A program made the translations under genes and the position numbers. DNA of 64,000 bases, taken from assembly GCF_014643735.1 (NCBI RefSeq), contig NZ_BMKA01000001.1, positions 62,001 through 126,000 of the forward strand, read 5' to 3'. The stretch is from Neptunicoccus cionae. Lineage in GTDB: Bacteria > Pseudomonadota > Alphaproteobacteria > Rhodobacterales > Rhodobacteraceae. Each line of letters begins with the position of its first letter. The stretch's first letter is position 1. The notes under the pieces are model-generated. The model searched no databases. It was given only the letters and a program-made list of their open reading frames with translations, and was not told where the DNA came from. Shown here in pieces: positions 50,711 through 55,094 of the stretch.

Positions 50711-53662
50711 TTATTTGAACATCTTGGCTTCGAAAGCCTTCAGCGACAGGCGCGAGGACGTATAGGCTTCGCGGCCCTGTGCATGGGCGAGTTCAGGGAA
50801 AAGCTCCGTGATCTCGTCGCGCTGTTCGGCGGATACGCTGGCCATCGCCTGATCGCCCGGCTGGAAGCTTTCGGTCCATGCGCCATCGGACAGAACAACC
50901 TCGTGGTGGTCGAACATGAAGTGCACATAGGTAGCGTGTGAAGCGCTCACCAACGAGACACCTTTGTCTGCGTTCACTAGATGCTTGGCAGCGACCAGAA
51001 CTTCCGGTTCGTTGAACAGCAGGCCGACTTCGGCGTTGTTCACCAGAACGCGGTGGTTTTGGCTGACCAGCATATCCCGTTCCGGCAGCCCGTTGCCAAG
51101 CGCGCCTTTGCGGATCAGAACCGGTTGCAGATGCGGGCTGGCTTGCAGCTCGGCCCCTGTCATTGGTTTGGAACCGATCCAGCGAACCTCTTGTGCACCA
51201 TTGTCCCGAGTGATCACCCGATCCCCGACCTTAAGTGACTCAACCGGCTTCTCGCCTTGCATGGTCGCAATCAGCGTACCCGGTGTGAAACAGGGCGGAG
51301 GTGTCGTGTCGAGAATGTTCTCGATCTCGGTGAAGGTCAGCTCGCCGGTGACAGAACCACCCGGACGGTCGATGAACTGGACAGTCCCCGAGGTGGAGTC
51401 GCCATCCGGATCAACAGTCTCGTTGATGATCTTGTAGTGACCGACATTCGACAGGTCGAGCGTATCGTAGTCATCGCCGCCGCTGCCACCGTCTACGATA
51501 TCGCCAATCGCATCTTCCGCAGAGTCGTAGTTGAACGTATCTTTGTCTGCGCCGCCGTAAGCTGCATCCGTACCGTGACCACCGCCGAAGATATCGTCGC
51601 CTCTGTCACCGAACATGGTGTCATCGTCGATACCGCCATAGATTTCGTCGTCATCCGCACCGCCGTAGATTACATCGTCGTCGTCGCGGCCATAGAGAAC
51701 GTCATCACCGTCACCGCCAAAGATCGTGTCCATGCCATTGTCTGGGCGCAGGTCGGTTTCGTCCGGGATATCCAGAATATCCGTGCTTTCCAGCCCGCCG
51801 TAGACCACATCGTCGCCAGCGCCAGCCTCGATCACGTCGTTGCCTTCGCCACCAACGATCAGATCGTCGCCTTTGCCGCCGTCAATCGCATCGTCGTCGA
51901 TGCCAGAGTAGATGGAATCATCGCCAGCACCACCAGAGATGCTATCCGCATCGTCGCCTGTGGTGATAATGTCGTTACCACCACCACCATAGACCGTGTC
52001 CATGTCGTTGGTTGGATCCGCGTCATCATCATAAAGGCCAGGATATCCGCGATCAGGTGTGCCGATGTCATTTGCAACATCCACGGGACCGGATGTGTCG
52101 ATCACATCATCGCCTGCACTGCCGGTTGCTGTGTCAGAACCGTCACCACCGTAAAGCGTGTCGCCATCGCCGCCGCCGAACAATTCGTCGTCGCCGTTGC
52201 CACCAAAGAGCGTGTCATTCCCAGCGCGACCGCGCAGGATGTCGTCACCGTCTTCGCCGTAAATCTCGTCGTTGCCGCTGCCACCGTCAACACTGTCGTC
52301 GCCCGAGCCGCCTTCGATAAGGTCGTCACCGCCGCCGCCATAGATCTCGTCGTTGTCTTCACCACCGTAAAGCCGGTCATCGCCACCTTTGCCTTCGATG
52401 TAATCATCGCCCTTGCCGCCGAAAAATTCGTTGGTGAACGTGTCAGAGGAAGAGGTGCCTTCCTGATCAAATCCGATGAGCGTATCGTCAAAGTCCGAAC
52501 CAATTGCCCCGTCGATGCCGCTGATGATGCTGTCATTGTCAGCGTCGCCACCTGAAAGGGAACCGGAGGAAAGATCGACAGTCACAGCAGAACCGCTGCT
52601 GGAATAGTCCAGATTGTCCTGACCTTCGCCGCCTTCAAAAATGTCAGAGCCTTCGCCGCCGACGAAGACATCATCGCCGTCACCGCCATAAAGCGTGTTG
52701 GTGCCGGTGCCGCCAGCAAGCACATCGTTGCCATTTCCACCGTAGACGGTGTCATCGCCGTCGCCCGCATCAACAATATCGTTGCCGGAATAGGCGTAGA
52801 TCACATCGTTGTCGCCGTCAGCGCCATCAATGGTGTCGCATTGTTCATCAACATAGCCGGGCAGCATAATGTCGTCGCCGCTGGTGCCGTCAACCGGAGC
52901 AGCCGTTTTTGTGCCGCCAGTACCCGTGCCGCCAGTTCCGGTCCCGCCAGTACCGGTCCCACCAGTGCCAGTGCCACCTGTACCGGTCCCACCAGTACCC
53001 GTGCCGCCTGTGCCGGTCCCGCCAGTACCGGTCCCACCAGTACCCGTGCCACCTGTTCCGGTCCCGCCAGTACCCGTGCCACCTGTTCCGGTCCCGCCAG
53101 TACCCGTGCCACCTGTTCCGGTCCCGCCAGTACCCGTGCCACCTGTTCCGGTCCCACCAGTACCCGTGCCACCTGTTCCGGTCCCGCCAGTACCCGTGCC
53201 ACCTGTTCCGGTCCCGCCAGTACCCGTGCCACCTGTACCGGTCCCACCAGTGCCCGTGCCACCTGTACCGGTCCCACCAGTGCCAGTGCCACCAGTACCC
53301 GTGCCACCTGTGCCGGTCCCACCAGTGCCCGTGCCACCTGTTCCGGTCCCACCAGTGCCAGTGCCGCCTGTGCCGGTCCCGCCAGTACCCGTGCCACCTG
53401 TTCCGGTCCCACCAGTGCCAGTGCCGCCTGTACCGGTCCCACCAGTGCCAGTGCCGCCTGTACCGGTCCCACCAGTACCCGTGCCACCTGTACCGGTCCC
53501 ACCAGTACCCGTGCCACCTGTACCGGTCCCACCAGTGCCCGTGCCACCTGTACCGGTCCCACCAGTACCCGTGCCACCTGTTCCGGTCCCGCCAGTACCC
53601 GTGCCGCCTGTTCCGGCAGTCGAATATGTGTCGTCTTTGGTTGCGTCCGTTACATCACTCAT
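50711..53662 (-). CDS. RTX (hemolysin-type Ca-binding) protein with Hint domain and pentapeptide stalk
   Basis: 983 residues from ATG 53662 (ribosome site TGGAG). After 16 residues come 47 tandem GTGGT-type pentapeptides (17-251), then a region of nonapeptide RTX repeats such as GGDGDDVFVGGEGSDIFEGG and many GGxGxDx motifs to about residue 760, which fold into calcium-bound beta-rolls. From C791 (PPPCFTPGTLIATMQGEKPVESLKVGDRVITRD) the C-terminus is a Hint_2-type domain with the VSQNHRVLV histidine block. No Sec signal; such proteins leave by type I secretion. No secretion genes are adjacent. Aspartate-rich RTX parts and a calcium-free stalk suggest a surface or extracellular protein. Confidence 0.92.
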   Translation of the reverse strand: MSDVTDATKDDTYSTAGTGGTGTGGTGTGGTGTGGTGTGGTGTGGTGTGGTGTGGTGTGGTGTGGTGTGGTGTGGTGTGGTGTGGTGTGGTGTGGTGTGGTGTGGTGTGGTGTGGTGTGGTGTGGTGTGGTGTGGTGTGGTGTGGTGTGGTGTGGTGTGGTGTGGTGTGGTGTGGTGTGGTGTGGTGTGGTGTGGTGTGGTGTGGTGTGGTGTGGTGTGGTGTGGTGTGGTGTGGTGTGGTGTGGTGTGGTKTAAPVDGTSGDDIMLPGYVDEQCDTIDGADGDNDVIYAYSGNDIVDAGDGDDTVYGGNGNDVLAGGTGTNTLYGGDGDDVFVGGEGSDIFEGGEGQDNLDYSSSGSAVTVDLSSGSLSGGDADNDSIISGIDGAIGSDFDDTLIGFDQEGTSSSDTFTNEFFGGKGDDYIEGKGGDDRLYGGEDNDEIYGGGGDDLIEGGSGDDSVDGGSGNDEIYGEDGDDILRGRAGNDTLFGGNGDDELFGGGDGDTLYGGDGSDTATGSAGDDVIDTSGPVDVANDIGTPDRGYPGLYDDDADPTNDMDTVYGGGGNDIITTGDDADSISGGAGDDSIYSGIDDDAIDGGKGDDLIVGGEGNDVIEAGAGDDVVYGGLESTDILDIPDETDLRPDNGMDTIFGGDGDDVLYGRDDDDVIYGGADDDEIYGGIDDDTMFGDRGDDIFGGGHGTDAAYGGADKDTFNYDSAEDAIGDIVDGGSGGDDYDTLDLSNVGHYKIINETVDPDGDSTSGTVQFIDRPGGSVTGELTFTEIENILDTTPPPCFTPGTLIATMQGEKPVESLKVGDRVITRDNGAQEVRWIGSKPMTGAELQASPHLQPVLIRKGALGNGLPERDMLVSQNHRVLVNNAEVGLLFNEPEVLVAAKHLVNADKGVSLVSASHATYVHFMFDHHEVVLSDGAWTESFQPGDQAMASVSAEQRDEITELFPELAHAQGREAYTSSRLSLKAFEAKMFK
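52910..53614. repeat. 15-bp-period minisatellite, 47 units (705 bp)
   Basis: Exactly 705 bases, 47 x 15, in frame with the RTX gene and coding for GTGGT units. Units pair into a 30-bp higher-order repeat: six consecutive 30-bp copies at 53041-53220 differ at a single base. Repeat units elsewhere differ by silent changes. Confidence 0.95.
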
Positions 53663-54089
53663 TACAAACTCCACTCATCATGCTGGTTCGACCGGTCCGT
53701 TTCCGGCGAAGAACGAAAATATCGATTAGAAGCAACGTATCCGAACAGATGGACTCTTGAGTTGCCGCAAATTCTCGTCCCCAGTTACACAGCACTTGGA
53801 TCAAAACTCAAGGAAAACCGTCCAATTTTGCCCAATTTTGGACAAATTTTGCCATAATTCGATATTTTCTGCCTTTTTTGGGAACATTGCGGTTGAGGAC
53901 GGTTCTTTGTCTCTCAATCGTGGACAATGGTTCTGATCCTCAAGCGCATAAGGCTATTGCAAAAAGCACACGTATGCTGCGATTCGCCGCTTTTGAGCCG
54001 CTTTGCATGCAAATGTGGCGGTATTTGCCACAATTTAGACTTAAACCGTCCCCATACAGCGCGGACAGAACTAATTCGACAGAGTCATT
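53663..54089. other. Divergent 427-bp promoter region with phased repeats
   Basis: It separates the RTX gene from the kinase-like gene. AATTTTG occurs three times at 53824, 53834 and 53845, spaced 10 and 11 bases, i.e. on one face of the helix. A GTGGC / GCCAC hairpin lies at 54015-54031 near the kinase-like start. The stretch 53800-53880 is AT-rich relative to the rest. I see no gene or RNA in it. Confidence 0.5.
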
Positions 54090-55094
54090 ATGGTAGAGCA
54101 AATCTGGAACGGAGTTGACATCGCACAGCGGGCAGAACGCCTGTTTGAAAAGCGTGTCTTGAAGGTCATCGCGCCGGGGGGGCGCAAACGCGGGAGCATT
54201 CGGATCGTTTTCACCGATGAAACAATCATCGCCACGCGGCGCGACAGTCTGGAAGAAACCAAAGCCGAGGCGCATATTCTTGAGCAGCTGACGAAGCACA
54301 CCACGTCCTGCGCAGGTTTCCTGGCGATGGACGGGGATGTGATGTTTCAGACGGATGTGGGTCAGCACCGCTTGGGGCAATACATACGTTTGCAGGATGT
54401 GTCCGATTGGGAAGATGTCGCGGTGAACAGCGTACGCTCTCTGTTTGATGTGCATGTGGCGGGCAATGCATCAACCCTGCCGCAGGATCTGAAATCGTGT
54501 TTCCTAAGCTCCAGATGGATCAAAATGTTTGTGAATGATCCGGCGCGGGTTGCGAAGAAACTGGGCCAGCCGATTCCTGAATATGATATGGATGCGCTGG
54601 CCGAGATCGTCAAAACACCAGAGCGGCGCTTTATCAAATGGGATTGCAGGGCAGGCAACGCGGCCACCGATGAAACCGGAAAAATCCGGTGGTTCGATTT
54701 TGAATATGCTGGCCTGCGTCATGGTGCCGAAGATTTCGCATGGCTGGTCGCGGATGAAAACTGGCCGCTTCAGGCGGATACGATGGTGTCGATCATAAAG
54801 CAGGAATACGGACGCGGTGAAGACCGCAGTTGGGAATCCTATCGTTCTTATCTAGAGGTCTTTGCAACGCTTCAGGCCATCAACCGTATTTTACAGGTTT
54901 TCCGCGGCGTGAAGCGCAAGGGCTGGATCAGCGAACAGCGGGCGCTGCATTATGATGACGTCGGAATTAACCCGCGCCTTGCGATCCACCTGTGTGAGAA
55001 TGGCCGGATATTGGCAGACCGCAACACAGTGACACGCCCGATTGTTCCGGTGTTTGAAGCAGCGCGCAGGGCTTTTGCTGAGACGATGAACTAA
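54090..55094 (+). CDS. APH/choline-kinase-fold phosphotransferase-like protein
   Basis: 334 residues. The second lobe has the kinase pattern F-I-K-W-D185-C-R-A-G-N190 and W-F-D203-F-E-Y-A-G, equivalent to the catalytic loop (HxDxxxxN) and the DFE/DFG metal aspartate of aminoglycoside phosphotransferases, although the usual histidine is replaced by Trp. Upstream, IRIVFTDETIIATRRD and EAHILEQL resemble the N-lobe. No signal or membrane segment. Substrate cannot be read. It is divergent from the RTX gene. Confidence 0.7.
   Translation: MVEQIWNGVDIAQRAERLFEKRVLKVIAPGGRKRGSIRIVFTDETIIATRRDSLEETKAEAHILEQLTKHTTSCAGFLAMDGDVMFQTDVGQHRLGQYIRLQDVSDWEDVAVNSVRSLFDVHVAGNASTLPQDLKSCFLSSRWIKMFVNDPARVAKKLGQPIPEYDMDALAEIVKTPERRFIKWDCRAGNAATDETGKIRWFDFEYAGLRHGAEDFAWLVADENWPLQADTMVSIIKQEYGRGEDRSWESYRSYLEVFATLQAINRILQVFRGVKRKGWISEQRALHYDDVGINPRLAIHLCENGRILADRNTVTRPIVPVFEAARRAFAETMN

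Follow-up and report, generated by a model that had tools for sequence, protein, structure and literature searches.

Gly/Thr minisatellite of a Neptunicoccus cionae RTX-Hint gene belongs to a series of repeat arrays linked to a neighbouring APH-like kinase gene

What does an RTX-Hint protein do with a run of 47 Gly/Thr pentapeptides at its N-terminus? The question is raised by a 64,000-nucleotide stretch of the Neptunicoccus cionae genome (contig NZ_BMKA01000001.1, positions 62,001 to 126,000; hereafter the window), where a gene on the minus strand (50711–53662; 983 residues plus stop) carries a coding minisatellite, (GTGGT)47, at 52910–53614, followed by an RTX region and a Hint_2 domain. Coding minisatellites are commonly taken to be length dials, and an earlier note on this DNA had read the tract as a flexible stalk of variable length. 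That reading overlooked a wider series of Gly/Ser/Thr arrays, linked to a neighbouring gene, to which the tract belongs; here that gene lies on the plus strand (54090–55094) and encodes an APH-like kinase-fold protein, as judged from sequence and fold matches and conserved active-site residues. It is the array, and not the calcium-binding part, that most often accompanies this one enzyme gene over large evolutionary distances. The gene neighbourhoods show that the stable partner of the array is the adjacent APH-fold kinase-like protein, and that the RTX-Hint part is exchangeable. Literature searches aimed at this coupling, which covered open-licence papers, listed none that describes it, as judged by titles and the beginnings of abstracts.

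Searches with the APH-like protein returned homologs in 15 of 148 and 47 of 394 genomes, or 53 different genomes, all of which were examined together with the window (54 loci). Within 2.5 kb of the kinase gene, a low-complexity Gly/Ser/Thr array was present at 33 of the 54 loci, a Y.NGG(V/I)..WY motif at 23 and RTX repeats at 17. At least one of the three was found at 44/54 loci, compared with 0/40 control regions, which lay away from these loci on the same contigs in 40 of the genomes and were chosen by us, not at random. A strict array detector gave 24/54; the looser rule was written after the loci had been viewed, and was applied unchanged to the 40 controls. Two loci, L003 and L193, count as positive through RTX and not through the array. 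At kinase identities of at least 35.5% a partner was present at 30 of 33 loci, and below that value at 14 of 21. Most loci have the kinase gene and its partner in divergent orientation; elsewhere the two are co-directional. The same association is seen from the side of the RTX genes: RTX open reading frames (ORFs) contained a 20-mer rich in Gly, Ser and Thr in 11 of 16 cases within 3 kb of a kinase gene (8/13 when the close kin L001–L003 are left out), as against 1 of 68 in 59 loci lacking the kinase. The P-values of the kinase–array linkage ignore relatedness.

At L120 and L121, KGTGGSGGS and SDSGSGGSGS arrays, respectively, stand before the RTX repeats, and the divergent APH-like neighbour is 47 and 46% identical. 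The APH-like neighbour is also present at L013, with a gap of 100 N where the array would sit; L193 probably represents the same contig. At the syntenic locus L122 the RTX-Hint gene remains, together with the MaoC, HAD, RibF, histidine kinase, response regulator and regulator genes, but the N-terminus is different, the array is absent and there is no APH gene, the genome as a whole giving no APH match at E ≤ 1e-20.

Other partners dispense with RTX. At L159–L163 and many of L194–L216 the kinase gene adjoins a gene for an array protein bearing a YHNGGVEG..F..WY motif, (GSGGTK)n or (GSGSGGTK)n arrays and, often, an acidic C-terminus. Two of these proteins, from L162 and L163, were scanned and gave no Pfam match, and NCBIfam collagen-like adhesin models matched the L163 protein at 45.8 bits, the cut-off being 325. 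Six proteins have two copies of the motif, and in those at L160, L163, L195 and L197 an array begins 19–33 residues after each copy. Separately, the sole control RTX protein with a G/S-rich array, at L127 (genome G179), has (GGSGGSGKGS)n within its N-terminal domain, and no kinase homolog was found in the stretch examined.

The tract itself is a real coding minisatellite, changing between species. Unit-by-unit decomposition of the coding strand bore out the 47 exact 15-base units described before, encoding (GTGGT)47, and Tandem Repeats Finder reports a single array at 52911–53616 (period 30, score 712). The array comprises 14 distinct 15-mers, with no amino-acid replacement in 235 codons; the variation is confined to five third-codon positions, all silent, the chance of that placement being 1/3003. 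The higher-order unit is 30 bp, the mean difference being 1.36 at a lag of two units and 3.98 at a lag of one. Six 30-bp doublets at 53041–53220 differ by one base overall, as the earlier note had stated; the base is located in the fourth doublet, and within the array homogenisation was probably most recent in these doublets. The unit pattern also fits the slippage or unequal crossing-over that had been suggested, with the frame preserved. Codon fractions in the array and in 13 other ORFs were 0.33 and 0.08 for ACT and 0.40 and 0.18 for GGT, an excess that we read as a founder effect of duplication. As to DNA secondary structure as a driver of change, the result is mixed across the tract and its strands (z-scores of −4.35 on the coding strand and 0.46 on the other at 53460–53579; −0.91 and 3.07 at 53041–53160), and we make no general claim. 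A candidate antisense gene of the (VPPVP)n type (ORF 52869–53729, plus strand) was rejected, the sense frame running on into an RTX-Hint part conserved in four genomes. The antisense frame is equally invariant because the third positions of the two frames coincide, and each of the six frames stays open across the tract, as the unit makes unavoidable; openness is therefore no evidence for an antisense gene.

Orthologs from Neptunicoccus sediminis (L001), Amylibacter cionae (L002) and a metagenome-assembled genome (L003) share gene order with the window on both sides; orthology was assigned in this way because a search with the N-terminal part mixed orthologs with unrelated RTX genes. The DNA flanks are 84–88% identical to the window. 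Copy numbers in related genomes, which the earlier note had proposed to compare, do differ: with one strain for each species, the 47 units of the window stand against 35 in L001 (33 perfect GTGGT and two irregular; 171 residues), 13 in L002 (65 residues) and about 5 in L003 (24 residues; three perfect, and one unit with a Cys). The window has three, one and one unit types in common with L001, L002 and L003; L001 has none in common with L002 or L003, which share two. Read from these alignments, the array DNA has evidently been replaced and homogenised between species while the peptide was retained.

It could be argued that such a tract is a functionless low-complexity insertion, merely tolerated, whose silent-only variation reflects a homogenised single founder unit. 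Homogenisation is evident, and L003 manages with about 24 residues, Cys-containing unit included. However, 14 unit types of silent change and no replacement are not what neutral slippage would lead one to expect, the peptide persists in four genomes where the unit types mostly do not, and arrays of other units recur at the same place in L120, L121 and L192, all of which makes this explanation highly improbable. Whether the counts themselves can be trusted is a separate matter. Draft assemblies are interrupted inside or beside arrays, by N runs in L193 (100 N) and L210 (688 N) and by a contig start in L198, so that long unit counts in drafts are uncertain. That the window array is an assembly artefact, its copy number inflated or collapsed, is nevertheless scarcely credible: the array is also present in three other assemblies, the window units differ among themselves in an ordered way, and the arrays of 13 and about 5 copies, at 195 and 72 bp, fit within one read.

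The variable length might instead be that of a passive linker or stalk, which merely spaces or tethers the RTX part, its length tuned or drifting, with the kinase adjacent for some other reason. The composition is flexible, a Pfam scan of the window protein found no domain in the tract, and AlphaFold gives no secondary structure over it (block means of the predicted local distance difference test, pLDDT, of 25–33 over residues 11–250), which suits a flexible chain, low confidence on a repeat not being proof of disorder. The length differs between species, and length variation is known in stalk-like surface proteins such as the Periscope Proteins (PMC8201768). The flexible stalk of the earlier note stands to this extent, but the tract is not the sole length dial: the ortholog ORFs range from 533 to 1075 residues, with the RTX middle largely missing in L002 and L003 and extra RTX in L001. 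A role in display fares less well, since only 16 residues precede the tract, leaving no domain to display, and no anchor was found. A passive linker would also leave unexplained the 44/54 loci against 0/40 controls, the 11/16 against 1/68 RTX ORFs and the joint absence in L122, and we consider it rather unlikely. The stalk reading is thus incomplete, and the more interesting object is the series of repeat-array proteins linked to the kinase, with the present protein as a member fused to RTX-Hint.

What, then, is the enzyme? Residues E60, D185, N190, D203 and R51 are present in 54/54 homologs, and R51 presumably occupies the position where the beta-3 Lys would be expected. The window kinase has the APH fold with the catalytic Asp/Asn and the metal-binding Asp, and it matches PF01636 (APH) at 19.3 bits, under the family cut-off of 23.2; a match at E ≤ 0.01 was obtained for 11 of 30 homologs. 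APH is its sole Pfam match at E ≤ 0.01, and by this measure it is not of the CotH family, distant kinship being possible. Structural matches among the best 50 of each list include LxmK, TvaE and N-acetylhexosamine kinases. Separately, at L277 and L278, from distant genomes, one stop codon lies inside the matched kinase stretch, possibly through gene decay or a match overrunning the gene end.

We lean tentatively, with confidence short of even, towards the neighbouring kinase modifying Thr/Ser of the array before export. The genomic coupling is observed, and the phosphorylation would follow from it by analogy with CotH–CotB and CaoK–CaoA. A number of observations weigh against this reading. By the criteria used, no partner was detected at 10 of the 54 loci (L166, L202, L212, L213, L219, L220, L221, L225, L228 and L231), and the distant loci L217, L222 and L223 have an RTX neighbour with little or no array. 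In a class-wide sample, where a kinase homolog was found at E ≤ 1e-30 in 13 of 385 genomes, the link was weaker, with an array or RTX ORF at 4 of 11 new loci (flanks of about 1.5 kb), as against 0/40 four-kb control stretches. L122 also lacks the enoyl-CoA hydratase gene, so that the change there exceeds the array–kinase pair. The second motif copy is not followed by an array in two of the six two-motif proteins (L199 and L208), and at L203 an array-less ORF of 205 residues, separated from the upstream kinase gene by 9 bp, has the motif YHNGGVEGRPLAEWY, which means that the motif can exist apart from the array. The window array contains neither Ser nor Lys, and the window RTX-Hint protein has no clear YHNGGVEG motif. 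Finally, small-molecule kinases (corramycin phosphotransferase, MTR kinase, glucosamine kinase) make up most of the fold matches listed and include the best one.

This last point raises the alternative that the kinase makes a phosphorylated small molecule (a sugar, an amino alcohol or a lipid head group), which would then be coupled to array Ser/Thr or be used in fixing the array to the cell surface. Glucosamine and N-acetylhexosamine kinases being among the matches would suit such a route, as would the Acetyltransf_6 (PF13480) GNAT gene that adjoins the kinase gene at L160 (1974–3359), L161 (6500–7732) and L163 (7195–8445). In the window, the gene downstream of the kinase is not a GNAT gene but a histidine kinase gene on the opposite strand, and we regard the small-molecule route as unlikely.

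The (GTGGT)47 tract forms a probably unstructured chain at the N-terminus of the RTX-Hint protein; as read from the unit sequences, slippage or unequal exchange alters and homogenises it quickly, while selection maintains the pentapeptide. On the modification reading that we favour, the APH-fold kinase would work on array Thr/Ser while the protein is still in the cytoplasm, most likely adding phosphate to many residues one after another. Distant members would offer it the YHNGGVEG..F..WY motif ahead of the array as a docking site, and the number of units would determine how many modified sites, and what length of chain, go with each exported molecule. Carried further, this might amount to the logic of ribosomally synthesised and post-translationally modified peptides (RiPPs) extended to large exported structural proteins: a dedicated kinase would dock on a conserved leader motif (YHNGGVEG..F..WY in distant members) and modify dozens of Thr/Ser in an array whose unit number is set by DNA slippage, with (GTGGT)47-RTX-Hint as the substrate in the window lineage. 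This wider scheme is possible but doubtful. For free-living marine bacteria, the coupling gives a candidate enzyme and substrate that can be tested together. Should the kinase modify the array, slippage would alter the number of modified sites per molecule, tying replication errors to surface chemistry, and a group of uncharacterised APH-like proteins would gain a substrate.

The start of the array-RTX-Hint gene is best placed at the ATG at 53662, with GGAG ending six bases before it and identical in four genomes; a GTG at 53674 upstream is the alternative. The leader MSDVTDATKDDTYSTA (53615–53662, minus strand) is all that precedes the array, and comparison by eye suggests that it is perhaps a worn-down Y.NGG(V/I) motif of the distant relatives. 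The RTX region (51296–52909, minus strand) has GGxGxD-type repeats (PF00353, E 6.4e-54, 12 stretches), which NCBIfam RTX toxin and protease models match far under their cut-offs (best 132.4 bits against 1000). The Hint_2 domain (50852–51295, minus strand) is complete (PF13403, E 1.2e-57, 147/147 profile positions), and its Cys791 and N869-H870 are invariant in seven aligned sequences; no solved structure matched the Hint part at E ≤ 0.01. The protein probably leaves the cell through a type I secretion system, as suggested by its RTX repeats and by PrtD-type ABC exporters, which score above the curated cut-off in 5 of the 6 related genomes searched. At L166 (1–4793), the APH-like gene comes right after ABC exporter and HlyD genes, which are themselves preceded by the end of an RTX-like ORF. 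The divergent intergenic region (53663–54089) has stretches conserved in four genomes when aligned. Three copies of CAAAATT (minus-strand reading) lie at 53824–53851, spaced by 11 and 10 bp, and are a possible regulatory site; all three are kept in L001, and the third alone is unchanged in all four genomes. A promoter scan gave two weak plus-strand matches, with 0.6 expected.

Length-polymorphic coding repeats of Thr and Gly are familiar from Drosophila PERIOD, a eukaryotic clock protein unrelated by descent. Closer in habitat is the PaxA-like RTX exoprotein of Ruegeria pomeroyi, abundant and secreted, which is likewise a marine Roseobacter RTX-type protein with a short-unit tandem tract (18 PEPEPK repeats); its repeat chemistry differs, and the available part of the source mentions no link to a kinase (PMC2953401). 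The Periscope Proteins are also repetitive, with unit numbers that differ between related genomes (PMC8201768). Theirs is a stalk of folded domains bearing an N-terminal binding domain, whereas here the chain is a pentapeptide repeat with a free N-terminus of 16 residues and no Pfam domain or predicted structure (pLDDT 25–33). In the Bacillus spore coat, CotH phosphorylates CotB and CotG, the latter having 19 Ser/Lys/Arg-rich repeats of 5–7 residues, and the arrangement is again that of a protein-kinase-like enzyme encoded beside proteins with short, probably disordered tandem repeats, which it phosphorylates many times (PMC7821199). The window kinase differs in matching Pfam APH (below cut-off) and not CotH, and its partner, a putative phosphorylation substrate, is Gly/Thr-rich, fused to RTX-Hint and probably secreted. 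The APH fold itself is shared with CaoK, LxmK and TvaE, the kinases of class V lanthipeptides and thioamitides, but the partners here differ in running to hundreds of residues, with RTX-Hint or, in many cases, an acidic C-terminus. CaoK phosphorylates Ser/Thr of its substrate CaoA iteratively and requires a conserved leader Tyr (PMC9486802), which may be compared with the Y of the YHNGGVEG that stands before the arrays.
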